Below, one piece after another: positions 3,840 to 61,941 of a stretch of 64,000 nucleotides of DNA. Made by a program: the position numbers and the translations under genes. Numbering within the stretch: the first letter of the stretch is position 1; each line of letters starts with the position of its first letter. The notes beneath the pieces were generated by a model. That model was not told the DNA's origin, ran no database searches, and worked only from the letters and a program-made list of their open reading frames with translations. The DNA is taken from NCBI GenBank assembly GCA_951230915.1, contig OX579641.1:9114001-9178000 (forward strand), given 5' to 3'. This stretch comes from Antitrichia curtipendula (lineage: Eukaryota; Streptophyta; Bryopsida; Hypnales; Leucodontaceae).

Positions 3840-4246
3840 AATTAGGGTCTCCAACACTTACAGTTTGGGTCTCCAACTGTCAAAGTTTGGGTCCCCAACT
3901 GTCAAAGTTTGGGTCTCCAACTGTCAAAGTTTGGGCCCCCAACTATTAAAGTTTAGGTCCCCAACTATGGAAGTTTGGATCCCCAAATGTCCAATTTTAG
4001 GCCCCAACTTTAGAATTTTGGGTCTCCAACTATCCAACTTTGGGCCCCCAACTCTAAAAGTTTGGATCTCCAACTGTCCAGTTTTAGGGCCCCAATTGTA
4101 AAAGTTTGGACCCCCAATGATAAAAGTTTGGGTCCCCAACTGTCATAGTTAGGGTCCCCAGCAATAAAATTTTGCACCCCTAACTCTAAAAGTTTGGATC
4201 TCCAACTATGGAAGTTAAGGTCCCAAAGTGTCCAGCTTTGGGTCCC
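3840..4246. repeat. 22-bp minisatellite, block A
   Basis: This is a tandem array of a 22-bp unit close to TTTGGGTCCCCAACTATGGA+AG. The first half (TTTGGG[T/C]CCCCAA) is nearly constant. The second half switches among a few variants (CTATGGAAG, CTGTCAAAG, CTCTAAAAG, TGATAAAAG, CTGTCCAAC). It ends with GTCCC at 4242-4246, exactly where the inserted element begins. Apparent ORFs in it are artefacts of repeating 66-bp frames. Blocks B and C have the same unit in the same orientation, so the three were probably one array. Confidence 0.9.
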
Positions 4247-14899: not shown

Positions 14900-16465
14900 G
14901 TCTTCAACGATAAAAGTTAGGGCCCCTAATGATAAAAGGTTAGGCTCCAACTGTGAAAGTTTGGATCTCCAACTATAGAAATTTAGGTTCCCAACTGTTC
15001 AACTTTGAGCCCCCAAATCAAAAAAATTGGATTCCAAAATGTCCAACTGTAGATCCCAAACTTTAAGAGTTTGGGTTCTCAACTATGGAAGTTGGGATCC
15101 CCAACTATCAAAGTTTGGGTCCTCAACTATGGAAGTTGGGATCCCCAATTGTCAAAGTTTGGGTCCTCAACTATGGAGGTTTGGGTCCCCAAATGTCCAA
15201 TTTTAGACCCCAACTCTAGAAATTTGGGTCTCCAACGATAAAAGTTTGGGCATCTAACTCTAAAAGTTAGGGTCCAAAAGTGTCCAACTTTGGGTCCCCA
15301 ACTTTGAAAGTTTGGATCCCCAACTATGGAAGTTAGGAATCCCAACTGTCAAAGTTTGGGTCCTCAACTATGGAGGTTTGAACCCCCAACTCTAAAAGTT
15401 TGGATCCCCAACTATGGAAGTTTGGGCCCTCAATTCTAAAAGTTTGGGTCCCCAACTATGGAAGTTTGGACCCCCAACTCTAAAAGTTTGGGTCCTCAAG
15501 TGTCTAACTTTGGGTCCCCAACTTTAAAAGTTTGGATCCCCAACTATGGAAGTTAGGATCCCCAATTACATAGGTTTGGATCCTCAACTGTTAAAGTTTG
15601 GGTCTCCAACTGTCAAAGTTTGGGTCCTCAACTATGGAAGTTTGGATCCCCAACTGTTCAATTTTAGGTCCCCAACTATCCAACTTTGGACCCTCGACTC
15701 TGAAAGTTTAGGGCCCCAACTGTCCAACTTTAGGCCACCAACTGTAAAAGTTTGGATCTCCAACTATGGAAGTTAGGGTCTCCAATGATAAAAGTTTGGG
15801 TCCGCAATGATAAAAGTTTGGGCCCCTAACTGTCAAAGTTTGAATCTCTAACTGTCAAAGTTTGGATCCTCAACTATGGAAATTTGGGCCCCCATTCAAC
15901 TATGAAAGTTTGGGTCTCCAACTATGGAGGTTTGGGCCCCCAACTATTAAAGTTTGGGTCCCAACTATCCAATTTTGGATTCCCAACTATCCAATTTTAG
16001 CCCCCAACTCTAAAAGTTTGGGTCCCAAACTATCCAAACTTGGGCCCCCAATTTTTCAAGTTTAGGTCCCCAACTATCCAACTTTGGGCCCCCAACTCTA
16101 AAAATTTGGGTCCCTTACTATAGAAGTTTGCGCCCCTAACTTAAAAAGTTTGGGTCTACAACTATGGAAGTTTAGATCCCCAACTGTACAACTTTGGGCC
16201 CCCAACTCTAAAGTTTTGAATTCCCAACTATCGAAGTTTGGGTCCCCAACTCTCTAACTTTGGGTCCCCAACTTTGAAAGTTTAAGTCCCTAACTATGGA
16301 AGTTAGGGTCCCCAACTGTCAAAGTTTGGGTCCTCAACTATGGAAGTTTGGGCCCCAACTGTCCAAATTTGGGTCTTCAACTGTAAAAGTCTAAATCCCC
16401 AACTGTCAAAGTTTGGGTTTCTGATTCAAAATATTTTGGTCTTTAACTATTGACTTTTGGGTCCT
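14900..16465. repeat. 22-bp minisatellite, block C
   Basis: The longest block, with the same unit and orientation as A and B. It begins directly after the CTCACA end of copy R and decays into AT-rich DNA after about 16430. If the two insertions are removed, A+B+C form one array of about 3.3 kb. Confidence 0.9.
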
Positions 16466-18392: not shown

Positions 18393-20225
18393 ATGGAAGT
18401 TAAGAAACCAAAGAATCAAAGGCAACAAGTTGTGAAAGTTAAATATATGACATCAAAAAATGTTATTGAATTAAGTTTTGATGAAGGCCAAGGATTTGGA
18501 TGCTGAAATCAAGGTCATACTAATGTTCGATTTGGAAAATTGTATGTTCTCTCTTGTCCTAAAACTTTAAAATGTGATTATTTAAAAACAATTTTTGATG
18601 ACAAACCTTCAAATGATACTGAAATATAAATATGTTTAACAACAACAATTTTTCATACATTATTGTCATAAAATTTGTTCAAGTTGCACACTACAAGAGA
18701 AAGGGGTGTTTTAAGTATAGTCCTAGAGATAACATTTTAAGTAATGACCTTTTTAGGAGATTTTCAGTAAGAATTTACAAGATATTTGTGTCTTTCTAGT
18801 AAAATTTTTACTAGAAAGACACAAATATCTTGTAAATTCTTACTGAAAATCTCCTAAAAAGGTCATTACTTAAAATGTTATCTCTAGGACTATACTTAAA
18901 ACACCCCTTTCTCTTGTAGTGGCATGAACAATTTATATGTACAAAATTCTACTCACATTCAGTGTAGTGAACGCTAAGAAAAAAATTTACATGATTTTTC
19001 TTATTGCAAAGAATTAATGAATATGTGGTTATGTACATCTTTTAATATTCATAATTTCAAAAAAATTCATAATATTTATAAAGGATTTGAATCTCATATA
19101 ATACAAAGAAATGAACTAAGTTTAAAGAAAAAAATGAAGTCAACACCATTTGTGATACTCCAATGCAAATTTATATTTAAAGAATTTGCAGAATCTGAAA
19201 TATTAAGAAAATTTGTTATTAAAGAAGATATGCGTGTTATGATATCTTTTTCTAATGTTCCAAATGAATATAAAAGTGAAAGAGAAAATAAAATAAAAAA
19301 TATTTCAAAAAATAGTGAACCGTTGCCTTTTAGGGAAGATGGTCAATATTCAATAGAATGAAAAAACTATTATTCATCTAATTTAATTAAAATACAATTT
19401 GGACCTTTGTTAGTATTAAATGGAAACAACATTGTCAAAGATAATATATTTGATTTCAGAAATTTGACATTTGAAATTATTTTATTAATTTATCATCCTA
19501 AATTATGGAAAGATTTCTCATACAAATCAATTGTTAATCAAGTTAATCATTATTACCTAACATCTCCATACAAGGGCAAAAAAAATCAATCAAATCCAAG
19601 AAGGGGACAATATCCCTCAATATGCCATGGTTATAATGCCCATGGAGGAGAACCATCAAAGGGATGTGTGGTTATGTATTCCCAAAGCAACTTAAGTGAT
19701 GAAATTCAAATGAGTTACAAAGCAGTGGGAGACAATATAGCATCATTAATTTGGAAACATTTATCAAAGTTTGGCAGTGCAGTAGAAGATTTTTTCCAAA
19801 AATAATTTTTTTCAATAAACTGTATACCTATTGGATTAGAAGGATATGAAACACAGGTACATCAAATACATATATCAAAAAATTCTTTTATTCAACTACA
19901 TATTAACCCTTCAGATATGGAGACCTCTTTTATTACATGGTTTGTTAAAGGAGCGCCTAAAGGAGGATTTTTTGGAGGATTTCAACACTGTTTGAAATTT
20001 GATAATGATAATGGTGCAGGCATTTTTATAAAAAGTAAAAATATTACCCATGGTACTTTACCATTTGATAGAATTTCTTTAAATGATTTCAAATTAGGTG
20101 TAGCAATGGTAATAAAGACATAGTTAGACACAAGACTACAGAATCAATTAAAAGAAGGAACTATTTTAACATTTAAAAATAATAAATGGTATGTAGAAGA
20201 CCCTGACAATAGTGAAAATATTTGA
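18393..20225 (+). pseudogene. decayed gene with possible 2OG-Fe(II) dioxygenase (TET/JBP-like) fold
   Basis: One frame carries coding-like sequence from ATG 18393 to TGA 20223-20225. It is broken by stops at 18504-18506, 19359-19361, 19803-19805 and 20121-20123, and by a MITE at 18689-18921; the part around 18600-19010 is unreadable. In the 3' part, LHINPSD is followed about 15-25 residues later by GGFFGGF and then by GAGIFIKSKNITHGTLPF. That order resembles the H-x-[D/E]...H core of double-stranded beta-helix dioxygenases, and the last segment recalls TET/JBP enzymes, which oxidise methylated DNA bases. If so, the metal-binding Asp of HxD is Asn here. An upstream segment HGYNAHGGEPSKG is also notable. 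Codon use is extremely AT-rich. The family call is tentative; the pseudogene state is clear. Confidence 0.4.
18689..18921. mobile_element. CACTA-type palindromic MITE
   Basis: The 233-bp element begins CACTACAAGAGAAAGGGG and ends with the reverse complement. The two arms of about 110 bp match perfectly as far as I can read, leaving almost no loop. It is flanked by GCA at 18686-18688 and GCA at 18922-18924, a 3-bp target duplication. CACTA(C) ends with a 3-bp duplication are diagnostic of the CACTA (En/Spm) superfamily. The perfect arms indicate recent insertion or recent arm homogenisation. A transcript would form a very long hairpin. Confidence 0.93.
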
Positions 20226-32187: not shown

Positions 32188-32404
32188 TCAATATTTGTGA
32201 CATTAGTAAATTGTATGGAATTTTAGTTCATTTTCAAACCAAAATATGATCATTTCTATTTCTATTATTAGTGGCTAGTATGCAAAATGAACTATATTGA
32301 AGAAGCATAATAATCATACTATGATTGTCTTACATTTAAATTTGTCATATAAATTTTAGAAAATTATTATGATCATAGTATTTTAAATTTTAGAATGTGA
32401 ATCA

Positions 32405-32431
32405 AACACGGAATTAGACATTCTTGCACTT
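32405..32431 (+). repeat. left terminal inverted repeat of the 18-kb element
   Basis: Sequence AACACGGAATTAGACATTCT then TGCACTT. It matches the reverse complement of 50633-50659 at 26 of 27 positions. ATCA precedes it. A second TTGCACTTGG occurs about 20 bp further in. Confidence 0.9.
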
Positions 32432-32715
32432 AGGGGGTGCGACATTGCACTTGGCTAGTACGGCATCTAAAATCGACAATCTCAAATGTTGTGGGGGGAA
32501 GCGATTACTGCAAACATCATTTTCTCTTAGTAGTAGAAATTGCTTGGTAAAAAGTTGTCAAACACTCCATTTTTTATAATTACTTCATAAAAACCTTTCA
32601 CACTTTTCACTCCACACTACTTTTAAGACTTATTAGTCTACGCTTCACACTCAAGTACTTCTACATACCTACAACTACAAGTACGTCGAACAACACTGCA
32701 TAATATCATATCTCA

Positions 32716-35700
32716 CTAGTACCTATTCAAATCATTCTGCAGACGTTCGTCATCTAGGTTCTCCATCTGCATTGCCATGTACTCGAGAAGATGTGCTTTA
32801 GCCTCTGCTGGAATGATCACTGTCTCCTCTGTATTCACGCCATACACTGTAATCTTGGAACCTATAACATGACCACTTCTCCCTCAACGAGGGACATCCG
32901 TCCATGAATATATAGCGGCTTCCTTCTCGGTCCAGCCCAACATCTCTCCAGATGGTTTCCACGTTGACTCCATACAGTTCGTATACCTCACTCGGTTACT
33001 ACCTGCTTCATCATGTGCCCCAGGCCTCATAGTAGACCAATACCATAGGACCTTCATCTTTGAGGCCCATGTCCCTTGACCGAATTCGAGTACCTTTCCT
33101 AAAAAAAAGGGTACTCCTCCTCTCACTTCCGCTAGTTCTACGGTGAGGGCTACATACTGTCCTACAACAATGTCATTTTCTGGATTGAATGGAGGAAACG
33201 GATCTTCCTCTGCATCTTATCGTAGCTCTGGTACAACTTCATTCCTTCTGCCTCGAATCTTCCCCCCAGCCACTCTTCGTGATGTTGCTTGTATAGGTCT
33301 ATCTCTGCGGGGTCCGAAATGCCCTCTCCTCTCCGGATTTGGCATTGTCGCCATAATCCTGTCAACGACTGCACTCTCCGTCGTATTTCCATCCTCATCG
33401 GCAACTGCATTTGCAATTGTACCTCCTTCCACGTCAAGAACAATTCCATCATCCCTGTTATGGTTCAAAACATTGTTGGGCCAAAATGGTAAATCACGGA
33501 CGCCTTCCCTATTTCGTTGTGGAAATTCCTCCAAATACTCCTTGAACTGTTCTGTTTCGTCCACCACTTCCATGTTCCTGATCGGGTTGAAGCCTCTGTC
33601 TATCATCTTCTTCTTGTATGCAATGAACTCGTCCAATGCTTTCAATTCCCTCTGATCAACTACAAACACTTCCGCGAGGTCCGGTTTCTCTGCTATGCTA
33701 GGTAGTGAGTTCAGACACAAATGTCCTCTCGCTGGGCCCCACTCATCTGTGCAGAAATGCTTGTGTTGCACACGGACCAACCCATTCTCCACGTAAAACC
33801 TCATATGGTGTGGAAATGTAATGCCCGTCAGTGATTCCTCTCCTCGTAGTAAATGAGGTGTGATAAATGCCTTCGAGTCGCGAACGTGCTCAAGCTTGCG
33901 AGCACTCACAAAAGCCTCTGTGTAAGACGTTCGTGTTGTCTGCTTGAATCCTCAGCGTCGGTGGCAATGACCCCTTCCTTCGCTTCACGTCACATATGAC
34001 GTTCATCACCAACATCACGACTTAATTGCTATCATGCTTGTGGTGAGCGTCTATCCACATGTCCGCATACAGACCGATACCATGTACAAGTACACCACAC
34101 AAATGAGTCTTCATAAATCGAGATTTGATGTTCTTCACGGTCTGCCTCATCTTTGGTATCATGGTCGTATTCTGATCCATACCGTCAACAATCAAGCACA
34201 TGAAAAAATTCGGAGTGATCATTGCGGACCTCTTGAACAACCACTAATCTCGCCTCTCTTCCATCTGAAATCGAATGTGTAGCACGTACAGTTCTTTTAT
34301 CTTCACCTTTGCTACAGCATTCGTCGTTGATTCCATCCCACACTTATACTCCCAACAATGATAACACTTCAAAAACCGGGAGAAAGGTGGAATTTGCACA
34401 TGCAGAAATTCTTTCCGCCAAAGCCGACAAAACAAAGACATTGACAACTCCGACCCGTCCACTAGTTTCTTCACTTCTTCGTTCACATACTGAAAAACAT
34501 CCAACTTGCTAGTATTCATTGGCAACAGAATCAACGGAAGAATCGCACTATCCATTTTCCTGCAAATCGATTGATGGGGTTGTTGACAACTAGCTTCGTT
34601 GAAGAAAATGTTGAGGCTTTCTCTAGCTGCTGACATTTTAGCACTTTCCCTCTGCTGACACCTGTTTCCATGAATGGCTACTACTCTGCCATATACAGCA
34701 TGTGTTGTCTTCAATTGCTTCAAACGCCTCTGAGAATAACCCAACGTTGCGGCGTAGCATGCATTGCACACGACCTTGCCATCCAGTTTTGTCACGTATT
34801 TGTCTCTTGTCGGACCCTCCGTGCGAGTGTAAAAGGCATTCAGCATTTGCATTATCCAAGTAGCACATGCTTTGTACTTCTGTCCCCAAGCCATATATCG
34901 TTGGTCCAATACATATTTTGCATCTACATCACGCAGGCAATTGCGTTTACATGCTCCCCTTTCCTTCGCACACATAACACTGTCCAGAGTAACTTTCTGA
35001 CTAGCAGACTCTCCCCTCTCCCGTGGACTTCTCTCCCTTGCCCTTCGATTTGCCATTGAATACCGCCTCCTCGGTGTAAGCTCCAGTAGTCCTTCTTCTC
35101 TTGTGAAATCTGCAGTGCTACCTTCCGAGCCTTGCATCAAAGGAGAACTTCTTCCTTGTACGCTTCTTCTACCTTGACTTGGTGGCGTGCATTCGGAAGT
35201 GCTTGGGTTCTCTTCTACGTCATGAAAATCAAATTGTGGTGCTGCAATAGGAAGAAAAGAGAAATTCTGCCCCTCCCTCGCATTTGTTGCCATTGTTCTC
35301 ACCTCGTAGGGACGTGAAGAACGAACTGAAGCACGATGCCATCGTATTATTTTATCTACACAATCTCCCATAGTCTTCCCTACCAACTCACCAACCCATT
35401 CTGTTTCATGTACAGCATGTGTGACATGAACCGCAATCTCAAAAGGACGTAATTTCTCTTGGTGTAGTTCATTACCACATTAAAAATTAGTATCCACCAC
35501 ACCCACACCCACAACTCGACCTTGGTCTCCAAGAAGTTGAACCATGCCATTGGTAGTTTGGAATTCTCCATCTCCTAGTGCACGATCTTCTTCTTCGAAT
35601 AGTCTTCCTCGTACCACACGCGCCAATCTTTCCCCTACGCTCCTTCGCTCTGTAGCAACCACTGTTGTCGCTATCGCATTGAATACCACTGGGCTTCCAA

Positions 35701-35716
35701 ATGCTTGTGCTGCCAT
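32716..35716 (-). pseudogene. DDE-transposase-like protein with C-terminal Tudor/BAH-like region, multiply interrupted
   Basis: One minus-strand frame of about 1,000 codons runs from ATG 35716 (MAAQAFGSPV) to TAG 32716-32718. It is interrupted by stops at 35480-35482, 34244-34246, 34022-34024, 33217-33219 and 32884-32886, and by a 1-bp deletion near 33930. Order: Ser/Arg-rich N terminus; Cys-containing block (CAKERGACKRNC...VVCNACYAATLGYSQRR); CYHCWEYKC; LIVDGMDQ near 34185 and IQADNT near 33940, likely the first two acids of a DDE/RNase H core; C-terminal VGQYVAL...PFFLGKVLE...WYW with a Tudor/BAH-like look. The layout resembles eukaryotic transposase-like proteins sometimes annotated with DUF7869; this must be checked. 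Its position next to one TIR supports a role as the element's transposase. All segments remain readable, so decay is recent, or some lesions are assembly errors. Confidence 0.65.
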
Positions 35717-38324
35717 TTCTCACCTACTCAAGTAATATATAATAGTCATGTATTTGGTGCAGAGCTTTTGTAATTCAATGTCTTCGCAAACCACTGTCCT
35801 CTCTGTATTTTCATTCACACAAGACACAATAAAAAAGTGTTCCTCCATAGTTGTAAAAGAACAATGAAAGCCCCCTTGACCACGGCTACATTTCAAGCCC
35901 TCATAAAGAATACTACACAAACAAATCTAATGTTTCTACTTATTTCTTTCCTTCATTTGCTTCAGCAAAGTTCTGCAGATACACTTGTTCATCACATTGA
36001 AGGAACCAGTGCATGCTCTCTATACAGCTTCCACATAATCAGTTCTTCTAAAAACAACTATTTCGAATGTGTATTTTGTTCAACTTCATAACACAAACAT
36101 TGTATACATAGAGGGCTACATTACTTTTTTACTGTATCAATTATTAATGATGTTTTAAAAGTGCACACTTTTTATACTAATATATTTTTATTTTTCACTA
36201 GATATATCATACAAATTCGTTGGAATCCTTGTACATTGAACACTTCATTGTAAACATGCAAACAACACCATCTTTTTACAACTTATGATACATGCGTAAT
36301 AACATTGCTAACATTAATAACATTTGTCATGCTCTCTTTCTTTCAAATGGGTATCTTAAAAAAGTTTAACCCCATGCCCTACACATTTAAAATGCTCATT
36401 CGTAAATGCCATATGCCTCTCATAATAATCACTGCACTAGACACATAATTTAAAGAAACGCCATTGACAAGAAACTGAAAAATGAACTACCACTTTCCAC
36501 TGTACATGTCATACTTTTTTTCACAATACTGTCAATTAAATTTATTTCTTCAATCCAATAAGCATAAAATAGCCCCTCCAAAGTTTTGTATAACATGAAT
36601 AGGCTTTTGGAACTTCCTTAGTTCTATCTAAGCATGAACAATGTAAAATGAAAGGTACTCGTTATATTATATGTATATTGCTTTTTATATGGTCATTCCT
36701 ATAAATAGTGACAATTTCAGAGGGATTTTCTGGGTATAACAGTGAGACCGTGAAATCAAAAATTTGTTATCCAAATTTAAATTATGTCATAATACACTTA
36801 GAAATGACTACCTACTTACACATACTTAAGCCTTTGATTTCACAATACTTGATAGGAGAAAAAAGATCTACTCTTACCACTACAAATGTATGCAACAAAA
36901 GCATATAAAGTTCTCTTGTAAAATCCATTCCCAAAACCTTTAATATACAAATGGCAACATTTTTCCATTCACAATAAAAAAAATGATTTTTATTTTACTT
37001 TTCTTTAATACATTTAAAAAGCTCTGAATGTAGGTATCTCATTTTTTAGGCACTATACGTATAGCATATTTCATGAATTATGCTGAACACTTCAATCTAT
37101 TTAAAAAAAAGAAATTTCAACATAACACACTTCTTTTACTATCCTTTGAAATCACTCCCTCCACCCAAATAATCTATTCAAATTAGACTAAATTTTTAGT
37201 TTTTAAGAATGTTTTTATTCCACTACGTGACATTGTCAACACATGAGATTGGTTTTGAAATTGCTATTTGGAATGCAGAAACCCATTTCTAGTAATACTT
37301 TCTCAACCTTCCATGCAATCATTAATTACATGACACATTGACACATGAAATGACTAGAGAGGTCAGTTCCCTATTCTTTCTGTAATTCCTTATATCTTTG
37401 AATTCTTCATGGTTAAAGGAGGTAAAGTTTTGCAAGGAAAGATTACTGTTCTAAAAAAGCAACAACCCTGTTAAACCAATCATGACAAATACATAGGTTT
37501 CACGTTCTAAAATATGCCAATGTACCAACGTTGTACAGTACAGGCGGTAGTTTTTTTTATTGACCACTGCATTTAATCTCTGAATGCCTAAGTCCTGTTC
37601 TGATGTTCATGAAATTTGTTATATATTGAACAAGAAGCCAACAATTAAAAATTCTGAATTTATTAATTTTTAAATTGTAACCATACAAATTTGAACTGAA
37701 CATGGTCAACATCATATACAAAAAGAGAATACAAAAATATCATTTAAAGAGTAACAGATTATAATGTTTAATTGTGATAATGTTAAAACTATGAAACTCT
37801 TCCACCTTCTTTTGTGCATGTCAAATCCAAAAAACTTTTTCCAAAAAAAAAATTAGCTAAACAAACAAACATGCATACTCTCAATCAATTATTGGCTTCT
37901 CAAAGCTTTGACCATTATTATCTCTAATGACTTCCTACTATGATTTTCCCTCAAAAATATAGTGTACTTCAGGCTCATGTCAAGGAGCTTTCAACACTAC
38001 GCAAAGTCAAGATTGCAAAACGTATCATTTCGCAAAATGTTTAACAATAAAATCAGAGTTCCTCATTTTCAAAATTAGAGTTCCGATGCTAAAACCAGAT
38101 TTCAAAAATAAAATTGGAGGACATGTGAGACCTTGAAAACAACAACTTGGTTACATCTTAATTTAATTCCCAAAGTTCCCGACAACATAATTAAACGCCA
38201 CGGGCATTCATTTCTATAACTCCTACAGAAAAAGTCTGAACAATATTAAAATAGTGGTCCTCGTTAATATTCTATTCCAACGAAATTGTTTCAAAAACAT
38301 TAAGTTATGTTCCCTTAACCCTTA
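35717..38324. other. AT-rich spacer inside the 18-kb element
   Basis: This is upstream of the transposase-like gene and may contain its promoter. No coding region or repeat with clear limits was seen. Confidence 0.4.
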
Positions 38325-38544
38325 AGCGTTGAGGCGGACGTTTTGCGATCGATAAATGACAAGAGAATCTCATATATAGGACTGAAGTGCAACTATTCAT
38401 CCTCCAAATTCTGTGGGACAAGGGAAAATCATGTACAATAGTTCGACATCCAAGGAGTGCTTCTGCATTATTTTAATCCAAACAATTGCAACGGTGTTGA
38501 AAAAGTTGATTTCCATAGTTATGAGCCCGTCGTTTAAGGGTTAA
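38325..38544. mobile_element. nested 212-bp TTAA-flanked MITE
   Basis: The element 38329-38540 starts CCCTTAAGCG and ends CGTTTAAGGG (9 of 10 inverted matches). TTAA lies on both sides. The ends resemble the 935-bp element at 31249 but the interior is unrelated, so it may be a second subfamily. Confidence 0.6.
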
Positions 38545-39202
38545 AAGCCTAGCAGCTTTTTCATGTAATTTACTAGAGCAGAGTCCCGCAATTGACTCAC
38601 AACTTAAGCATGAAACCTGAGAACGGATGAAATCAACAAGGAAGAAGGAACAAGCATGAACGAGCAGAACCGTCAGTTGAACACAATGAGGGCGGATTCA
38701 CCCCTCAATTCGGCCTTACCAGGGGTGATTCTAAAAATAAAGCCCCCTACTTTGGGCTAATCCAAGGATTATTCTTCATGCCATTAAACTAATCAGGTGT
38801 CTCTGATCTTGAATATGAATTCAAAATTTCTTAGGTTAGACGCCAAATTCACTTGTCTTTCAAGAAAACTTCACTGAAAAATATTTCAAGATTTTACGCC
38901 TTCCCAAAATTCAATTTCAACTCTTAGGTGGGCGATTTCTGGACCTGTTACCTTAACACAATCCGATGTTGCAAACAACTGGACTTCAATATATAGAACC
39001 CCCGTGGGACTGTCATATCTCCACGTGTTTCACAAACAAATCGCATAAACAGTAAAATACAAACAAACTTCTGTCCTGAATAACATTGATATACAAAATC
39101 CAATTTCAAAGAAACTTCCTACAATCTATAGGAATAACTCGAATTAAAGTAACATAGCGGAACCAACAAGAGAAAAAAAATGACGGAATCAGAAGACAAA
39201 AG

Positions 39203-39351
39203 GACATTATTTCAGTTCACTAGTATAATTATTGTTGTAAACTACGTACTTTTACCACTTTAAAAGTGGTAAACACACTACCATTACCACTTTCAAAGTG
39301 GTTAAAGTACGTAGCTTTCCATGATTGTAAACTGAAATAATCTCTCCGTGA
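39203..39351. mobile_element. fold-back MITE-like element
   Basis: Outer inverted segments ATTATTTCAGTT[C/T]AC and inner inverted segments CTACGTACTTT[TA]ACCACTTT are arranged around 39275. A related end (GTAAACTGAAATAATCTC) also occurs near 22163. Target duplication not determined. Confidence 0.55.
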
Positions 39352-39886
39352 GATACGTGATGGAAATCAGGGTCTCCTGTCTAACATGGAATCCATAAGC
39401 TACATGGCTATCCAAGATCCAAGTTCAAAGCTTAAAGTACGTACATCAATCAAGTTGAGGAAATGTATTCCCAAAGTGCAGACTCGACGTAGCATAAAAT
39501 CCATGTAGCTGCAGTAGTTGAAGCTGGATCCCTCGCTTCCCGCCGATCACAGAAGACTTCTAGATTCCTACGGAGTGGAATTGATGAGACACTCAAAATC
39601 AGAAAATTTTCCGTGAATGTGGACACAAAATATGACCACAAGCTTGTCTTGATGAGTTGAACACACATATAAGCTTTAACCCAAGTTATACTACTCCACT
39701 AACATGAGCTAGCTGCCACGTACGTCGATGAGCGCTGTGCATAGCTTCCTCTGACCTGGATATTTGGAACGGAAAGGCGGTTGGTTGACTCCGGTAGGTA
39801 GGAAGTCTGGTATTAGAAGCTTCGTCGTTATCAGAAAAATATGACAGCAGTCGCCAGCTCAATGCACCGCCACAAAAATAAATTAA

Positions 39887-40717
39887 ATCACTGCAAATTC
39901 CACAACTGATGTGCCGTTCCCCGTACTTCTCGCAGCGTGCTCCATTGCCGCGCCGCGGTTCCTTGTGAGGGCAGCGTACGCGTGTTTCGAAGGGGACCCG
40001 CAGAGTCCAGCAAGGGGGTCAGCTCGCAGAGGCTGCTTACCTGCAAAACGTAAGACCTGCACCTGCAAACCCCATGTATCCTCGCAACAGGAAAGAGAGG
40101 AATTGGTAAGCGCTTCCTTCAATCCTGCTTAATTCCTTGCACTTCCATGATGCGCAATTGTGGTTAAGAGAAGACAATCTCCCTCTCCCCCTCATTGAAG
40201 TTCTGTCCATTTTTGCAGGCGGTGGCTGAATCGCTCGTCGACGAGGGGCATCAAGAACTGCGGCAGTGTACCCAAGCTTCGGCGTTTGCCTCTTCTCATC
40301 GGGTACAATTTCCATCTACTACTAAATTTCGTTAGCACTTACTTGTCGTAGGGTTTACGAACCTAGTGAACAGTATTGCGGAACAGACCCCCTCCACTCG
40401 CGGGGGGTTTGACTGCAAACACTGTTCACCGTTTACTAAACTATGAACAGTGTTTGCTGTCAGACCCCCTGCGCGTGGAGGGGGTCTGTTCCGCAATACT
40501 GTTCACTGGGTTATCGTTTCTTCCTGTGTTTTAGTCTTTACGCCCGTTTTATTGCGTGACCTTTGAAGGTGGAGGATCAAAGAACTTACTGACCTGGTTT
40601 TTGCAGAAGCACTCGCTGGACTTCAAACTTCCTTCGTCGCTTGCTGCAGCCTCCGTCAGCCAACATCTTCTCTTCTCCCTTCTCCACGTGCTCCTCTTTT
40701 TCAATCGCTACCTATGA
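39887..40717 (+). CDS. GC-rich three-exon ORF inside the 18-kb element, possible captured gene fragment
   Basis: Exon candidates are up to 40105 (ending GAGGAATTG|GTAAGC), 40219-40302 (after TTTTTGCAG) and 40607-40717 (after TTTTTGCAG, ending TGA). All junctions are phase 0 and keep one frame of about 130-140 codons open. The first exon has no ATG in that frame downstream of the stop at 39884-39886, so its 5' part is missing, lies upstream, or begins at an acceptor such as TTCTCGCAG near 39939. The translation is rich in Ala, Arg and Ser and not recognised. GC content is far above the surrounding transposon DNA, which suggests a piece of a host gene carried as cargo. The consensus introns are the main support. 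Confidence 0.35.
40360..40512. mobile_element. GC-rich palindromic MITE-like hairpin
   Basis: Arms of about 68-70 bp (left 40360-40429, right 40445-40512) begin AACC[T/C]AGTGAACAGTATTG and contain GGAACAGACCCCCTCCAC. They leave a 15-base loop (CGTTTACTAAACTAT). It lies in the second intron of the GC-rich ORF. I could not define a target duplication. Confidence 0.7.
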
Positions 40718-42182
40718 ATTCGAGTTTCATGAGTGCGGGGAGTCCACATAGTTGGATCCGAGGAGCAGGAGTGCGGTGCGTACTTTGAGTAGGAGAGGAT
40801 TTTCATTGAAGAAACAGCAACTGAAAGGTATGAATTCACACCAATTTTGTGTGAAATTTGTTTTTGAATAGCCAAGGTCCGAAAGTGACAACGCGGAGAT
40901 TCAGTACTTACGGTTAACTCCATCTACCAAGCTCGCTTTCACTTCAACAGTGCACGGCAGGGAAGAAGCGAATGTCTGTGCCCGCTCCCTCACGTAATGA
41001 ATGTCTCGGAATCATTCTTTCCGCGGCAGATCGCTGCAGCCTCCATGATTTATATGAGCTTCATCGGGTCGTTTTTTACCTGCCGCAATAGTGGATTAGG
41101 AATTTAGGATACAGACCACAACAAATTTCAGTTCAGTACTGAACCTTGCATACAAAGCCTGTCATTTTGGACGGCAGTGGACTACTCGCGATTTCTGGAC
41201 CTCGTGAATGCGGTAGTCTAGTACGATGAAATCATTCGGTTTTTTGTTTTAAAATAACTGGCTTCATGGACGTCTAAATTGAAATCTATTCGAAATCTAA
41301 TGAACAGGGAAGCATACTTGGGTAATGTAATCATGACTGAAATGTCTCCGAACAAAAACACGCACCAGGTGATCGAAATTGAGCAGCTATTCGAAGGACT
41401 TGAATTTGGACGTCCACAAACCGCTGAGAATACCATCGGCCCTGCAAAATTTTCGGCAACTACAGAATGTTTCTTGCACAGGGCTGGTTCATCATAAGCT
41501 TCATTCACTGAACGCATATTTCGTGGCTTTGGCAGTCTGAACTAGTTTGGCGCTGCGAGCTGCTTAGACTTTAGACCGAGCGGTCTGAACTGCGGCAGAT
41601 CTGCATTGCTCTGATATTTTTGGAATGTACAATCTGTTTTAGATAATTGAAATCCGTATGACTCCTAGATTGTTTATGCAGTGCATTATGAAATCTATAA
41701 ATCTCCTAGATTTCATAATTTGAATTGTTCTAGATGGCTGTAATCTATATCTGCCCTAGATCGTGCGATGCGGAAAAATACCGTTAATTGAACGAAATAT
41801 CCGTTGTTGCCTTAAATATTTTGATCCTTGAAAATTATACCCAAGCGACTGAAGACTGGAACTCGTTCCGCCATCAACAAATGACCCCTGTTATTTGTGA
41901 AGTTGCGAGCACGTTGGAAAATTGGGCGATAATGGATCCCAACTCCCGATGGGACTGTGAAACGCGTAATTAATTAAAATGAAGTTATATAGTTCAACCC
42001 ATTTAATTTGAGTGAGAAATAAGAAGATTGAAGGAAATTTTTGAGGCCATGTGGTGTTCATCCTAGTTTTGCCCCAAATTTTAACCTTGCATAACAGAAT
42101 GAAATTTATTTTTACGACACATTTGATGAAATTGGTAATTTTTGAATATGTATTATGAATCAGAGGCTTCACATTACTGAAC
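40718..42182. other. spacer inside the 18-kb element
   Basis: GC-richer up to about 41100 (perhaps more of the captured segment), then AT-rich. No convincing gene. Confidence 0.35.
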
Positions 42183-42765
42183 TCGTAAAGCCCCGCTTGT
42201 TCCCTCAGTGGTCAATTTGGGTCCGGGTAGGTTACTTTTTTCTCAATTTGAAGTGAAAATTTTTTAAAATTTTTGAGGTTGTTTAGCTTTGCAATAGCTT
42301 TGTGGGTATATAATTTTTGTTTCAATCGGATGTCGGATGAAAAAGTTATGGCACAATGAGCAAGAAAGAAAGATTTTTTGGCAGCTAAAAAAAAATTACA
42401 AATAAAAAAATTATTATTTTTTGAATTTTTTTTCCTTAAAGAATATGATTGTACCTATACGTCGAGCTTTGATTCATTCTATTTGGACTGGGGAAGAGAA
42501 AGTTATGGACAATTTTAGGTCTTCTGACAGTTTGAGCATCTTCTCAAAATAAAAAAATTTATTCAACTTTGAATGCTAATATCTCCTAATCCGTACGGTC
42601 GAAACTTTTAAATTGTACTGCATGATCTCAGACAAGTTAAGTACAAGATGCTACGGTTAAATTGCAGAAAAAACAGAAAAATTGGTTTTTATAAGTGAAT
42701 AAAGCAGAAGTGGTAGTTTTGAGTGGTTTTTGGCAGAAAATTACTCGAGGCTTTAAGGAATAAGG
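42183..42765. mobile_element. degraded TTAA-family element nested in the 18-kb element
   Basis: The left part (GTAAAGCCCCGCTTGTTCCC...GGGTCCGGGTAGGT) matches the intact 5' end at 60869. The right part (AGTTTTGAGTGGTTTTTGGC...GCTTTAAGGAATAA) matches the 3' end near 18100. The middle has GATGAAAAAGTTATGGCAC. The terminal bases and TTAA sites have mutated. Confidence 0.5.
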
Positions 42766-45732
42766 GACGTACAAAAATATGAAATTTGAGTGAGAAAAAG
42801 TAGGAGTAGTTTTTACATTTGCCCATCCAATATCGCAATAGAGTGGTCAATCCTCTTCAACCGACATTTCAGGCGCTGTTGTTTTTGCGTTGTGTGTTAC
42901 GAAGAATATTTTTAACACGTCACGGTCATGTATTGATTGTAAGAACACTTGAAATAAAAGAAAACAAATTTGGACAGGGGAAAGTGTGAACTTCTGCAAC
43001 TACGACTTTATAATCTCTTGCGGAAGGTCAAAATCTGCAAAGTGCTCAAGTGACATGCAACTTTGTGGTATTTGTCTTTTGTGTTCAAAATGAGTACAAT
43101 TTGGTCAATAGCTTTAGATGAGGACAATGGGAGGAAATTGTCATTTGTTATTGAATATAATGAAATTGGGTTGACCAATTGAGTGGTTTCATTGAAAAGC
43201 AACAATGAGATGAACCTGAACACTAATGTAGTCAAGTACATTGTTTTTAAATATGTGTTCTCTGTTACTGAAAAATGTAAATTCACAATTACTTAAGTAC
43301 ATGAGAGATGCTTCAAAGGAATGTATGCTGGCTAGCGTGCCTGCTTTGCTATTTTAAATTGCTTCACTATTTTTTGATGCTTGCCATTTTGTTTTAACTT
43401 TGTGCTCAATAGTGCAATTTTGGAGTTGTATCAGTGTTCTAAGAGGTTTACTTGAATTGTTTGTGAATTGAAAGTTGTTATGTTTTATGAAGGTAATTCA
43501 TTACTTAAGAGAAATAGAGACCTTTGATTTCTAAGTTTATATTCTGGAAGAGAATGAATGGTGGAGTTTTTGATTGTGCATTTTGCTATAGCAGATACCT
43601 CAAGAAGATTGAATGTTGCAGAACGCAACATTCAAAAGTGAAAGCGCCATAGTCACGCATATTATGTAGTTGCCAGTAGAATCAAGAGCAGGGAGAACAT
43701 CTGCATGAGGTACTGTTTCCACCTTTTTTTTATAAAAAAAATTAAGTGATATAAGTCGATATTTAATCATGATGATTTCATTCTCATTCTTCAGAGCTTG
43801 TTATGTACTATTTTCATATATGAAACTCTTTGTGGAAGATATTCATGTATGGCAGTACAAACTTTTTTGTGATTACTTATGAAGAATTACATAAATGCAA
43901 TGGATTTCAAGTTGAAGATGTACTGAAAATCACTATGAAACTTATAATTGACAAGTATAAAATGTTAAATCCATTTACTCCATTCAATGTGTAGGGGACT
44001 TTTAAAGGTTTGAGTTCCTTGTCTTCTGATTTTTCATGTTTTGTTATTTCCAATTGTGGTTGTTTGTTGGATTAGGCAGCCCATGAATTGAAAGTAAATA
44101 AACTAATACTTTATGATTTCTGAATTTGTAAAATTTAGACTTCCCAGTCTTATGCAAAAATGCAATTTCTGAATAGTGTTGAATGAAAAGGCCATAGAAA
44201 TACATTGATCCATTCTTTATTGTCTCATTTGATTTACTTATAAATCATTGTTTTTTGGAAGCCGTAATGATAATTGTTCTATAAGAATTTTACTGACAAC
44301 TAATAATTATAGTATCTATAATCAAAATGTTTTTAACATCTAGAAAAAAATTCATAAAACCACCATGAACAACTAAAATACAGGGAACGTCCGCAATCAT
44401 CCAAATTTTGTTGTAGCAAGATACATGTATTTTAGAGGTTCTACTTTAGAACAAAGTTGGGCATCGATGTTCTATACAAGTAAAATATATGATTGTTTCC
44501 ATGAAACAATTCACCTCAAGTATTGTATATTTGAAATGCATAAGAAAATAGGTTAAGAAGGATTGAATAAATGTTCAATATTTTTGAAGGAGTAATTGAG
44601 GAAGACGTTCAAGTTGGAATGAATAAGTGTACCCTACAAAGTACAAAGGGAAAATTTTCTATTTCAAAATTTGTATGAGTATAGATTCAATAACAGGTAG
44701 AAGGTATCTAAATGTATTACCTATGATGACTTTGTCTATCAGTAGTTTATAAAGTCTTTAATTACAAGTACCTCATACTTAAGAAGTTCTCAAGCGCAAG
44801 TTCTTGGAATTCAAGTGTTTATGAATTATTTATTTTTTGCTTTGCATTAAATTTCTTCCGCTTGTCTTTCGTGGCCATATTTATTGTGTGAATGTTTTTT
44901 ATGTTCGTTTTGCTGTTGGAGCACTTTATATCAATATTTTACATATATTCTAGTTGCACTGAAGTTGGACTTTTGTTGTTTGTTTTTATTTAGGAATTTA
45001 TAGTAGAAGTGATGTCCATCATGTACATAAACAATTTGTTGAGATACTATCAAGAGAGGAGACATTGAAAGCATGTAGACAATACATATTAGTTGTAGTT
45101 CTATTAAACTCAAACACATTTTCACAGTGAACTTTGTACAATATCTAGAAATACTCATTTGAATAAGTTAAATGAGTTTTGAATTGAGAGTTCAAGAACT
45201 ATAAGATAGACGGAAAGGTTTTTATAAGGTAACGTTTACTTTGATCTTTGGAAACGATTTTACTTTATTTGATAAAGTAAAAAAGAACAACATATGAAGG
45301 TAATGATAAAATTATACATGCAATGTTCTACTGAGAAGAGATATATAAGATTATAACATGCAAATCAGATTGAGTTTTTTAGGTTTGTAAGTGTAGTGCA
45401 TTTGTTATAGCAATTGTGATTTTCATTGTCATGCAAAGAACAAGTGTTATTGGAGAACAATTGGATTGATTTCCCATGTTGGACTGTTGGTGGATTTTTT
45501 TTTTTTTTTTCATTGGTAAATTTGGTTCTCTCTGTAATTACAGTGAGTACCATCTAAAAAATATTCATTTGTTGTATTGCATGAGTTTTTCAAAATTCAC
45601 GACAACAGTAGTTCGTTTATCAAATTTGAGACACTTGGAATAATATTTTTTAATTTCTTTTTATGTATTTAAAAAATATTGAGAAAGTCAATGAATGCTA
45701 AAGTATTGTTGAACTTTCATTTTCAAGGCATC
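42766..45732. other. AT-rich spacer inside the 18-kb element
   Basis: Upstream of the ParB-methyltransferase-like gene; may hold its promoter or 5' introns. Nothing else recognised. Confidence 0.4.
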
Positions 45733-48700
45733 ATGGCACCAAAGATGCATTCGAAGTGGTTGGAGCATGGATGGTGGATCGTAGTAAACGACAATGACAG
45801 GTCTTCTTTGTGGATCACAGATTTTCCAACTGGACAGGGGCGTTATGAGTCTGCATTGGCGTCCTCACATGGAGTCATTGAGGGACGCACGGGAACCGCT
45901 GACGGAGGACTGAAGTGTCGGTGACCACAACAGAGACGGCACTAGAGAAGTATAAACTGAAGAAGATATTGATGATGGCTCCGGTTCCGCCACAACTTCT
46001 TTTAGTTCTTACTCCGATGCGTAGCTTGAAGAGTGTGGCAAAAGATTGGAAGAAAGTGCCTCATGAATTGCAGGTTAAATGAGAGGGAGCGGTTCAGAAA
46101 TTCATGGGGATGACCTCTGAACAAGTGCGAGCATTGCATCATCGATACCGGGAGATTCTAAGCCGGGAAGAATTAGAAAGGATGAATCCAGGTGTTGTGC
46201 AAGAGCGGCCTGCACCAAAAGATCCAGAGGACTTGAATGAAGTATATCAGGATCTTGCTACGCCAGTTAATCCAAATTGGATTCCACCGGATGAACGGAA
46301 CCGCAAGCGAGCTGCTGTTGAAAGGGGATTAGGAATACATGAAAATGAGGGGGTTAATTCTGGTGGACCAAAGGCACAGCGTCAACGCCTCCAATCTGCA
46401 GCAACCGATGTTGTTCAACCTACAAGTAATACTGAAGAGGTACAAGTGCAAGCGATCGCAGCAGTGAGGCCACCAGTAGTGAAGTCTTCAGTTGCAGAAG
46501 AATCATTGCAATCGAGAGGGGAGGGAACTGAAAATCTTGTACCAAGCAAACTCCCGGTTTTTCCGGAGCTTCCAAGTGAAGGAGAAGAAGGAGCTCCAAC
46601 CACAATCACGGAAGTTGGATCAGGGTCAAGATTAAGACAACCAAGAGTTGGCTCAGGTGCCAGAGTTTACAGGTCACATGTTGTAGTGGCCAACGTGGAT
46701 GCTGCAAGGATTGTCAATCGTGCTGGACGTGGTGCTGTTAGGGAACGCGGTGCTGGTGGAAGACGTGTTGTTGCAGGACGTGCTATTGGTAGAGAACATG
46801 GTGGGGGTGAGGTGAAACATGCTTCTGCAGTGGAAAACGTCATAGAAGACCAAGGACAGCCTCGCACTCGTGCAACGGATGCTGCAGAAGAGCAAGGCGC
46901 TAGGAAGCGAACAGCAGCACAAATACGTCATCAAAGAGCAGCCTTACAAAGTCGTCCTCCACAAGGAAATGATGGCGAAAATGATGTTATTGATGATGAT
47001 TCTTTTGAAGGTGAACTAGAACAAGAGCCTAGAAGAATATTGCCAAAGAGCATTACAAAAGCATCTGTTGTTTTTCCTATTGAGACCGAGTACAAAGCAA
47101 GATACATATGGGGACAAAGTTTGATTTTGATGCGAGGATCGATAGCATCCGCGATGTGGCTAACGCAGAGACAAACCACAGGGTGCTAATGGATTGGCGT
47201 GTGAATGAAATGTACGAGCGCCTCAAGGGATCCGAAGCTGATGGAGTAAGCGCGATTACCCTTCATCCCATTGCGTATCGCTATGACATTAGGAATGTCG
47301 AGGGACAAACGGAGGTGACAGAGGTACCGTTTAGCCAAGAAGGGGCTGCACAAGAATTCGAAGCCGTGTATTTGAAACATTGCCGAGCGGATCCATCGCT
47401 CTCGAGCACCGCATTGCAGAAGAGGTGGCTGGAGAGCAATATTGTTTGGGAGCCAGTAGATGGCCAACATATTGTTGGTGCTTGTAAACAAGCTGAACGG
47501 GAGAAGGAAGAGGGACATTTATCCAATGAAGAGTATCATGCGCAGTTTGTGAGACGGAAAGCAAAGTTTGTGGTGTACAACAACCCACAGTTTTATATCG
47601 AAGTGTCGGTCAAAATTAATGCAAAGGAGTTTGACAGGGAATTTTTCACCACGCATTACGAAAATCTCATCAAACTGCACGATATATGGAAAGCATGTGG
47701 AAGTCCAAGTGTTGCTACTCGAGCTGACGATGCATACAGAGCAAAAGCATTGACAATGGCAGCGAGTGCATTACATTTAAGTCAAAGCTTATCAAAGGTG
47801 TATCGTTGGGGGAGTTGTCGAGGAAGATGGTGGACTATACACGCCATGCTTGGCATGAAGACGAGGAGTCCTATAAGGCTATATTGCGGGTGTGCAAAGA
47901 TTATGAGGACGGAAAACTATTTTTCAGCAAGAAGGCAGAAAATAAATGGAAGAAGATAGCTACAGATCAGAATCTTGATGTCACAGTGGATGGAAACCCA
48001 AAGCGGAAGAGGATGGAGAAGACCTGGTGGAGGCCGTTGAACAGCATCTCTACAGAGAACTATGTACGTGTGGTCAAAGAGATGTCTGCAAAGGATGTGG
48101 TGAATGGAAAGCGTCCTTCGCAGCGATACTATTTCAATGATGCTGCTTCTGCAAACCCCTCCAAAGGTATAATAGCGTATGCGGTGGACAGAGTACAGCG
48201 GAAAGATGCCATCAGAAACCAAATTCGGTTTCTTATGGTAGAAGCAGGGGATGAAAATCCATTGTCCATGGATGATTTCTTCTCCATCAATGCAAGCAAG
48301 TATGGAGATTCGGAAGGAAGGCAGTTCATCTTGATGGGGAGGACATTGGATAATGACACGAAGACCTCGTGGTATTTTCCTGCAGTGACGACAGTTCAAA
48401 TGCTTAGCAGTTTGGAGAGTGCCGTCCCAGCTTTTGTCAGACAACACTTTGTGGATATCCGAGTGGGTCGCAGAGGTTATGCGGGATATGGTCGAGACGT
48501 CGAGGATGTATGCAATGCTCGCTGGAATTGGCAAGTTGCAATCTCAGTAGTGCAACACGAAGAGCGTGAACCCTCATTTCACGTGAGATGTAGAGGAGGG
48601 TTTTTTGAGGACAAGTACATTGAACTTGGCAAACCATGTTTTTGATTGTAGACGTGGAGGTTCACAAGGGGCGGACATACCATGGTCGAACGAGGATTAT

Positions 48701-50129
48701 AGCAAGGTTGTGCAGCAACTCAAGAACTAGATGTCTTGCATTTTTCATTGGAATGCCGTGTTTTTGTTTCCGCCTGGCGTATCCTTTAACGAAGCGATGG
48801 AGTCGAGGATGGCGTTGTCAGAGGGCTGCCTCATGCTGCAAGGTTCTTGGATATTTCAAGCAGAAACGGTGTCCTCATACGTGAATGATCTGCGTCATGG
48901 CGAGCAACGACGCCGTGGTGTACAACCTGTTGGTGGCATTGTCATCATCATGAATTATCCCAAAGAGAGTGGATTCATGGAAAACCTTCCTAGCGGTACG
49001 GATGACTTACATGTTATATTTCAAGACTCTTGGAGTACAGAAGTGATGCCTCGAGCGCAAGACAAGTTTGAGAGGACACCAATGGAGTTGAAGAGATTGG
49101 TGCAAATGTATTTGCCGCGGAATTGGGGGTTGGTAACACTAGGCATCACAATGGCAGTGCCAGGGATTTTGGAGACAGGATATGTGGGCAATGATGTTAT
49201 CATTATGGAAGGTGTCTCGTTGAAAACGCAATTCGTGTACGACAAATTGCAATCAATGTATGGGGAGAAGTTGGTGATGGTGAACAGTGTGAGTGGCCGC
49301 CAAACGCAGACCCTCACAGGGGTTGACTAGAGAAGAGAGGTTGCCTGGTCCTGGTGTTTCTGAAACAGATGGAGGTGTGCCACCTGGTAGAGTTGAAAGA
49401 CTACCGCGGTCATCTAAGGATTCCTCCGATGAAGAAGGGAGAGGTCAAGTGAACAGACGGGGACATCGCAAGGGGAAAGCTAAAGCAGTTGATTCGGGAG
49501 CCTCATCGACGAACGAAGACGAGAGTAATGCCGAGTGGACACAGTCTGACAGATTACCAAGTGCTGGCCGAAGTTTAGGTTCTCGTGACACTGATGCAGT
49601 CAGTGATGCCCATGGGGACCAAGCAAACTTGATGGAAGTAGAGCAAGACCCGGATTTTGTTGTTCCAGAAGTAGTTGAGGAGGTGGACAACGTGGAACCG
49701 GAACAAGTTGAAGAGGGCGTGGGAGAAAATGCAGATACAACAGCACAAACGGAGTCCCTGTCAGCGTTGTCAGCATTCAGTCAATTGGATCAAATGAGCT
49801 TCGTCCCGGATGGTGAGGGATATTATTGTAATAGGGACAACGTTCGATTCACTCGGACAAGTGAAGGACCACATTACATTTATCACCGAGTGACTTCCAT
49901 CTTGGAAGGACCTTCTCAGACGCCAACTTTATCAGAAGGAGTGACAACACCCGTTGCAAGCACCATGGTGGATACGGCGTTGCAGTTTATTTTTTCGCCT
50001 CCAATGAGTCCAATCGGTGGACCAAGTGCACAGGATCAAGCGGAGGCAACTGGTGGAAAAGAAGGAGGAGATTTGGTGCAATCATCTGCACGAATATTGG
50101 AGACACCGGATGAAGCAGGGCCGTTATAA
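45733..50129 (+). pseudogene. ParB-like / amino-methyltransferase-like fusion, frameshifted
   Basis: The frame begins at ATG 45733 (MAPKMHSKWLEHG) and ends at TAA 50127-50129, about 1,460 codons. Order: unrecognised N-terminal domain; MTSEQVRALHHRYREIL helix region; Gly/Arg-rich linker (46600-46800); ParB-like domain with WEPVDGQHIVGAC, where VDGQH is at 47456-47470; Trp-rich region; methyltransferase-like region with ADIPWSNEDY at 48671 on (variant of the [DNS]PP[WY] motif IV) and LVTLGITMAVPGILETG...VIIMEG at 49125 on (resembling motif I); acidic disordered tail. ParB-methylase fusions are typical of phages and bacteria, where the second domain methylates DNA. Lesions: shifts near 45910, 47111 (G4), 47744 (A4), 48628-48643 (GG or T5) and 49319 (G4); stops at 46080-46082 and 48728-48730. 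Most shifts sit at homopolymers, so assembly error is possible. The role in the element is unknown; marking or protecting its own DNA is a guess. Confidence 0.65.
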
Positions 50130-50620
50130 GAGACATAGTAGTACGTGTGATGGTAGAATATGGTGTGTGAGAGTATAGACCTTGTGTGCTAGTTTTGAAA
50201 GACTATGAAGATGTTTGAATAATTGTATGGTTTTTGATTGGTGTGAGCACATAATTAAAAAATGTGAAGGTAGTTGCTAAACCTTCAATGTCATTTTGGA
50301 TTTATAAATAAATATTCTGAAAATTGTAGTGAATATTGTTGTACACATGGTATACGCATATAAATATTATAACATGAATGTAATTGCAAAGTGCTGAGCA
50401 TGAATGTTAATACATGAGACCAAACCAAATGATTGATAGGAAGAAATATTATGTGTTGGACTCGTATTTCTCTTGGAATAACTAAAATTGCATCCTCATA
50501 GAGAGTTTGCATTTGAAGTGATAGTATTGCATGATGAAATTAAAAAATTGATCTCCTGAAAATCTGGGGGGTACTCAAGTTTTTGATAACACATTTTTTT
50601 AATAGTTTTGCATACGATCA

Positions 50621-50640
50621 TTGCACTTGGCCAAGTGCAA
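50621..50640. promoter_or_regulatory. 20-bp perfect palindrome at the right terminus
   Basis: TTGCACTTGGCCAAGTGCAA is its own reverse complement; its last eight bases belong to the TIR. TTGCACTT also recurs beside the left TIR. It is a good candidate for a binding site of the transposase or of the ParB-like protein. Confidence 0.5.
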
Positions 50641-50659
50641 GAATGTCTAATTCGGTGTT
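50633..50659 (-). repeat. right terminal inverted repeat of the 18-kb element
   Basis: Its reverse complement begins AACACCGAATTAGACATTCT and continues TGCACTT. It is followed by ATCA (50660-50663), matching the ATCA before the left TIR. Confidence 0.9.
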
Positions 50660-50663
50660 ATCA

Positions 50664-60864: not shown

Positions 60865-61941
60865 TTAACCCCTAAAGCCCCATTGTCCCCTCGTGGGACA
60901 ATTTGGAGTTTGGGTAGGTATCTACGGGCTCAAATTGTAGTGTGATTTTTTGAAACTTTTTGAGGACGTGTAGTTTTCCGCGAGGTTTGTGTATATGTAA
61001 TTTTTATTCCAATCCAATGCCGGATGAAAAAGTTATGGCACTTTTTTGCCCAAACCAAACTTGAAGGGCAGGCTGGTCAGCCAAATTTCCCCTTGACTTT
61101 CTAGGGGTCGGGGAAAGAGTCTGCCCCTTGAGTTTGGCTGGGGCAGCGGGTCAGTCCCTGTGGCTGGGCTCGGTTGGGCGCCCTCAATCGTCATCCTCTG
61201 TACCGCTTAGATGGAAGGCCAGCCTCAGCTGGACGGGAGGCCCTCGATCCGGCAGGCTTTAGAAGCCCCCAATCCGGAGCTTTAGGAGGGAGCCGCAGTA
61301 GGCTACGCCTGGCTACGAGCTCCCTCTTTGATTCTGCAATTTTGAATTGAAGGCCAATTCGGCCAATTTCTTGAAATTTGTGGATCCTCTACAGGTGGTG
61401 AAGGTGCAAGAGATTTGACAGTGCAATTTGATGAGAAATTGTGACGAATTTTGAAATGTTGGCAAACGGTGAATGGACCACAGGAGTCCAAAAATGCCAA
61501 AATTCTCAAGAAAATTTGCAGTCATTACTACTATGAGGCTACAATTTCTATGCGTGGCACCTAATGCAAGCTTTTGCAATGAATTCGACCAACATTTGGT
61601 AGATTAGAGCACTCTAAGCTGTAGAAATCTAACCTAAAATGACAACCTGTCCTTCACTCTTGTCACCACTAATATTGCAAAGAAGTGCAATTGTGGCAGT
61701 GCAAATTCATGACTCTCTTACCTACAAAGTACATCATGGGAGATTGTGCAAACAATTCCATAATGTCTACAACCCAACAAAAATTTCTTCCTACAATGCA
61801 AGAAGGCTCACTCTCTCTCACAAGAGCTACATTGAAAACTATATTTCTCTCTGTGAATTCGATCAATGCTGTGAATTGGAGCACTGTGTGTGCATCAAGA
61901 GAGCCTAATACCGAGGCGCAAGAGAATTTCTTCCACCAACG

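Follow-up and report, generated by a model that had tools for sequence, protein, structure and literature searches.

A 64,000-nt stretch of the moss Antitrichia curtipendula (contig OX579641.1, positions 9,114,001 to 9,178,000; hereafter the window, on contig C9 of the 400-Mb genome) contains one 18,255-bp DNA transposon at 32405-50659. Its 27-nt inverted ends (32405-32431 and 50633-50659) are complementary at 26 of 27 positions (96%) and are flanked on both sides by ATCA, which bears out the claim of a first-pass annotation that this is one mobile unit. Two divergent genes, a transposase of the DUF7869 family on the left and a member of a conserved but unannotated family on the right, are separated by a long middle with a palindrome near its centre. 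Both large genes are broken, and the window copy is decayed and dead. The features of the element are as follows.

32401..32404, no strand: left target-site duplication (ATCA), read in the sequence
32405..32431, plus strand: left terminal inverted repeat, 27 bp, from the end comparison and the genome end search
32716..35719 (about), minus strand: left gene, DUF7869 (putatively DDD-type) transposase, broken, from Pfam and frame mapping
36105..45559, no strand: middle, delimited on both sides by a fixed distance from the end of the element, with divergent genes to either side; no long conserved frame found, parts common to other copies
40360..40512, no strand: central 153-bp palindrome, at 0.44 of the element, from self-comparison and a strict scan
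~40402-40429, minus strand, and ~40443-40470, plus strand: half-sites of this palindrome, from the half-site pattern
45814..50126 (about), plus strand: right gene, unannotated family, broken, from genome and database comparison and frame mapping
50621..50640, no strand: right subterminal palindrome TTGCACTTGGCCAAGTGCAA, overlapping the right terminal repeat
50633..50659, minus strand: right terminal inverted repeat, 27 bp, from the end comparison and the genome end search
50660..50663, no strand: right target-site duplication (ATCA), read in the sequence

The first-pass annotation proposed that the ends be sought elsewhere in the host genome. With up to 3 mismatches allowed, the 27-bp ends matched 294 times (152 forward, 142 reverse), while the reversed pattern used as a control matched nowhere on either strand. 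Pairing relied on the 100 end positions listed of the 294, all without mismatch. Among these, 26 pairs of adjacent ends less than 40 kb apart were convergent and none was divergent or on the same strand; one divergent pair on contig C2 lies slightly beyond the limit, at ~41.6 kb. The 26 pairs span 14.4-35.6 kb, and 19 of them fall within 17.3-20.7 kb. Short deletion derivatives, which DNA transposon families usually have, are missing from the 26 listed pairs. Ten further copies were taken from these pairs by end pairing and a length of 17.9-19.5 kb, giving 11 with the window copy (W). Both gene modules are present in all ten, so that the second gene belongs to the unit as had been claimed. The reading in which the two ends come from unrelated insertions and the 18-kb unit is accidental is refuted by the end count with its control, the convergent pairing and the joint presence of both genes in the ten other end-paired copies, and we regard it as next to impossible.

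Exact 4-bp duplications flank 10 of the 11 copies (ATCA, GTTA, ATAT, TTTT, TTAA, CTTA, TGGG, TTTT, TATT and GTTA), and that of L040 is inexact (TTGA/ATTG). Two copies, L046 and L048, are ~99% identical in all three zones, yet their duplications differ (CTTA and TGGG), which is what movement gives; a segmental duplication as the origin of this pair is ruled out by the same difference. The arrangement was also found starting from the genes. Left-gene matches stop 292-395 bp (mostly 309-323 bp) from a listed end in 28 of the 43 scored, and right-gene matches stop 534-970 bp from one in 9 of the 32 scored. A scored transposase match stands head-to-head within 40 kb of 14 of the 32 second-gene matches, at distances of 10.4-13.4 kb in 12 cases and 27-28 kb in two, with no selection for length. 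The host is photosynthetic, as indicated by 53 light-harvesting (PF00504) matches above the cut-off in the genome, counted exon by exon.

The ends carry further structure next to the inverted repeats. All 11 copies have a palindrome at the right end, made up of TGCACTT at position 21 and the complementary site at 32. At the left end, direct TGCACTT sites stand at element positions 21 and 42, 21 bp apart, in nine copies, and the remaining two have the site at 21 only.

In the window, the left gene is interrupted by five in-frame stops and has lost 203 bp at 33932/33933, a deletion that removes residues ~599-666 of the protein, including the block GHTHEDID. The profile search proposed for this protein found Pfam DUF7869, at 9e-14 for the pieces in the window read together and at 1e-51 to 7e-51 in three copies with an intact left frame, in support of the earlier label of a DDE-type transposase. 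That frame is open over 1,067-1,072 codons in 3 of the 10 fetched copies, and 8 of the 43 scored left-gene matches have no stop. The three intact frames carry the blocks VDGMDQ, QADNT and GHTHEDID, whose Asp residues are presumably catalytic, which would make the enzyme DDD-type. The term DUF7869 was not found in the literature searched.

The right gene of the window maps as six pieces in shifting frames with two stops, and it likely starts at ~45733, judging from a beginning (MAPK...HGWWI) like that of the relatives P0003, P0004 and P0008. One genome copy has an open right frame of 1,475 codons, giving a protein of at least 1,475 aa; it is the sole locus with a single stop-free match spanning the query among 32 scored loci (462 candidates). 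Public sequence yielded 99 distinct relatives (73 and 26 more), many of them fragments and some possibly from this or a sister genome, in searches that each scored only the ~8,000 candidates sharing most words. No precomputed Pfam domain is present in any of the 99. They split into at least three groups, the more distant ones being ~26-31% identical to the first; two further deep groups comprise P0035, P0064, P0077, P0079 and P0081-P0089, and P0078 and P0080. No viral relative was found: one pattern gave 29 stretches, none of which was confirmed, and five phage records at E 3 are chance matches. One family member matched a PHROG family of unknown function at 8e-4, which led nowhere.

Both genes bear the mark of selection. 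Between copies of types A and B, dN/dS is 0.14-0.17 for the left gene and 0.19-0.25 for the right gene, the latter at dS 1.0-1.2; these are Nei-Gojobori counts over copies that include broken ones, with stops skipped. By such counts both genes have demonstrably been under purifying selection, and the value for the right gene indicates that its function was maintained for a long time. In very recent pairs the ratio is 0.45-0.72, as expected of decaying copies.

The first-pass annotation read the right protein as a ParB-methyltransferase fusion. In the Pfam search that had been proposed for it, 53 relatives matched 22 families between them at E ≤10, and both ParB_N and N6_N4_Mtase are missing from these; at that cut-off the HMMER filters still drop most matches above 0.1. 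The protein of the intact frame has just two Pfam matches below the cut-offs, and NCBIfam and the PDB sequences gave no significant match. We then have the comparison by profile with a panel of 13 phage and halovirus ParB-methylase fusions, against column-shuffled nulls. As a whole, the profile reached E 0.098 over 25 columns, off the matching motifs. The methylase half scored 12.1 against 15.0 for the shuffled null, with shuffles at or above it in 52 of 60 cases (51 of 60 with a second panel; 53 and 37 of 100 in a wider alignment), whereas the positive controls YhdJ and the phage Brynnie methylase scored 180 and 98 with nulls near 15. For the ParB half the score was 12.9 against 12.7, with shuffles at or above it in 23 of 60 cases (33 of 60 when trimmed; 62 of 100 in a wider alignment). 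This second test is weak, as even P1 ParB reached just 18.7, with a null of 13.1 (sd 2.4, maximum 19.2).

The motifs were also inspected directly. VDGQHI in the right protein, a stretch that we take to resemble the GxHR box of ParB, falls within the best local ParB alignment. GQH is present in 25 of the 26 rows shown; ParB has an Arg at the last position of this box, where I or V stands in 26 of 26. At the place where DPPY of a methylase was sought, an alignment of 34 rows (20 aligned, 12 gaps, 2 misaligned) has DPPY in none of the 20 aligned rows, which read DCRR in 12, DCRC in 4 (P0084, P0085, P0088 and P0089), DCRW in 2 (P0078 and P0080), DYRC in 1 (P0081) and DCQC in 1 (P0087), with D in all 20; P0035 is among those with DCRR. 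Judged by these profiles and motifs, the right protein is not recognisable as a ParB-methyltransferase. Since the methylase claim fails a working test, the idea that the transposon methylates and so marks its own DNA is left without support. A ParB-like stretch at VDGQHI is possible, and it is reasonable to regard the right protein as a putative DNA-binding protein of the element. Wolbachia phage WO, considered as a source of a ParB-methylase, led nowhere.

In contrast to the ends, the ~10 kb between the divergent genes is mostly unalignable between copies. W, L036, L040 and L042 have ends that are 88-92% alike, yet only 1-45% of their middles align. L036 and L040, at dS 0.14-0.20, share <20% of the middle, or about a third in a looser two-strand search with pieces summed. 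A third conserved gene in the middle was sought and rejected, as only short scattered matches were found. The middle of the window copy has a sister on contig C10 at 94-97%, and at least 19 of the listed places that match it adjoin second-gene matches, as judged by eye; on this basis captured host genes were rejected as its source. The segment at ~42177-42760 has no counterpart at that place in L040 but occurs elsewhere, also inverted, in other copies; part of it resembles window 60867-61041 at 76%, and it is likely a small nested repeat.

Two copies are chimeric, L044/L045 (C4:11343162-11361988) and L052/L053 (C3:36849235-36868498), each joining a transposase module of type A to a second-gene module of type B. 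Copies therefore exchange parts, and the two ends recombine. The length of the middle, 9.1-10.7 kb, is the total less a fixed 8.8 kb, so that its steadiness is in part a result of choosing pairs of 17.9-19.5 kb; it is best read as common ancestry, with recombination having shuffled the deep haplotypes of a single ancestral middle.

We searched the middles by k-mer for targets like those of VANC, an anti-silencing protein of VANDAL transposons discussed below. The scan returned ACTGTTCAC, with 13 occurrences in four type A middles against 0.5 expected. This sequence is the arm of the central palindrome, which in L044 reads GTGAACAGT-ATTTGCGATCAGACCC-TCCGCGCG plus its mirror. By a strict scan, 8 of the 11 copies (W, L036, L038, L040, L042 twice, L044, L048 and L052 twice) have such a palindrome at a relative position of 0.40-0.48, and self-BLAST alone added that of L046, a near twin of L048, for a total of 9. 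The palindrome lies in or beside the GC-richest part of the middle. The same scan found none in 112,887 bases of Markov sequence and four in the 45.7 kb of window flank, the latter with a GC content of 0.25-0.41 against 0.49-0.63 in the elements. The half-site, with at most 4 mismatches, is present in 7 of the 11 elements and absent from the window flanks and from eight 3-kb end neighbourhoods. The flank also contains, at window 18663-18944, a 282-bp palindrome that is ~95% self-complementary, has an AT-rich core and lacks the half-site of the central palindrome.

The explanation that we prefer, at about an even chance on the evidence of sequence comparison, is that the window carries a decayed member of a large two-gene cut-and-paste family whose second protein would be a DNA-binding factor acting on the element's own middle, in a role like that of VANC. 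The DUF7869 transposase would move the unit by recognising its ends and the subterminal TGCACTT sites. The second protein would act on the non-coding middle of its own family, with the central palindrome as the most likely candidate site, and its action would keep the element expressed or assembled. That it acts on the element's own DNA seems most likely because it is present in every copy examined, is selected and can be separated from the transposase by recombination; its link to the palindrome is put forward as a proposal. Several observations weigh against this explanation. The sister copies L050 and L054 have no central palindrome, and other palindromes occur inside some elements too. The order of the half-sites in W and L036 is opposite to that in the other five. 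The half-site pattern was derived from these very palindromes, so that its presence there is not independent and the evidence consists of place and symmetry. Across the middles, the k-mer scan found no VANC-like array of one short motif. Lastly, the first-pass annotation had proposed looking for an intact copy; the left gene is open in three of the ten copies and the right in one genome copy, but in none of the 11 are both genes open.

Instead, the second protein might be a direct partner of the transposase, in end binding, target choice or activation, while the palindrome serves as a shared control region of the divergent genes. Its presence in all ten fetched copies and a selection nearly as strong as that on the transposase fit such a partner, and a palindrome between divergent genes, in or beside the GC-richest middle, is placed as a promoter or insulator would be. 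L044 and L052 argue against a tightly matched complex, without excluding one, since in them the transposase is of type A and the second protein of type B; we consider this explanation possible but somewhat doubtful. We are more sceptical that the central palindrome is a nested palindromic mini-element which landed in an ancestor and is no working site. Other palindromes, both in the window flanks and in further parts of some elements, are consistent with this origin, as are the two copies that lack it; its similar arm at the same relative place (0.40-0.48), in middles that mostly fail to align around it, speaks for a different one.

Two further explanations both appear improbable. In one, the right protein is a ParB-methyltransferase on the element's own DNA, or a relative that keeps the fold without the catalytic motif. 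The order of the VDGQHI box and then the block LWIFDCRRG...W...RWNAVFLLP recalls, as we see it, ParB followed by methylase motif IV, the D at the DCRR place is invariant in the aligned rows, and the best ParB alignment includes VDGQHI. Against it, both halves score no better than shuffled sequence where true methylases score easily, NCBIfam and PDB sequences returned nothing significant, DPPY is missing and I or V replaces the Arg of ParB throughout. In the other, the second protein would be a eukaryotic ParB-like loader with the palindrome as its parS-like site, spreading from there in both directions through the 10-kb middle toward the divergent genes and keeping the element open for transcription or transposition. 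Such a loader would jointly explain the VDGQHI box, the near-central palindrome and a middle that changes more in sequence than in length, and also why the 26 listed pairs include no short deletion derivatives.

Elsewhere in the window, arrays of 22-bp repeats of the AGTTTGGGTCCCCAACTNTNAA type lie at 3862-4246, 8917-10247 and 14905-16418, and one such array reads as an open frame (3658-4101). A host-like gene with an NLI-interacting-factor phosphatase domain (PF03031, 7e-15) is located at 1875-2729.

We compared the preferred explanation, that of a two-gene family with a VANC-like second protein, with known systems. The nearest described group would be Sola, a placement by likeness of description that is set by the duplication, the putative DDD-type blocks and the size. 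In the part of the account available, Sola elements have a DDD transposase, 4-bp duplications and highly variable ends of 11-1124 bp, some exceed 15 kb, and they occur in moss (PMC10741241); according to an excerpt of another study, the fern Azolla has more of them than Salvinia does (PMC6786969). The present family shares the 4-bp duplications (exact in 10 of 11) and a size above 15 kb, and may share the DDD type of transposase, to judge from its blocks. It differs in its second conserved gene and its central palindrome, neither of which is mentioned for Sola in the portions of those sources available. Sola2 elements, according to a partial text, have AT-rich 4-bp duplications, and elements can resemble each other over one half only (PMC3627910). 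The same text describes Sola2-Fanzor1 chimeras and mariner elements with methyltransferase genes as cases of extra genes in DNA transposons; those extra proteins differ from the second protein here.

The VANC proteins of VANDAL elements bind non-coding parts of their own family and induce the loss of silent marks, and the bound parts diverge fast, according to the section of the source available (PMC10398659). As here, a plant DNA transposon is combined with fast-changing non-coding DNA of its own family, an analogy of role only: VANDAL elements are Mutator-type and, as far as that section goes, have targets in tandem repeats of a short motif, whereas the copies here have one palindrome or two, and the search for an array of that kind found none. 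Fungal transposons of several superfamilies carry a TET/JBP dioxygenase that is thought, in the accessible part of the report, to counter silencing (PMC12730594). That is a recognisable enzyme which, on the same partial account, is passed between superfamilies, unlike the unannotated family found in each of 11 copies here. The ParB-methyltransferase fusions of phages and haloviruses, such as M.PhiCh1-I, have a GxH box before a second domain in common with the right protein, but in these tests their sequence relation to it did not rise above chance.

No such element was found among the literature matches listed, and because Repbase and most subscription journals lay outside the search, the element may be filed there under the Sola name. 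The constant second protein of this high-copy, very large family is unnamed in the family libraries used. The family retains a palindromic site near the middle amid DNA that is exchanged. Should the second protein counter silencing via this palindrome, plant transposons outside the Mutator group would offer an example of sequence-specific anti-silencing.

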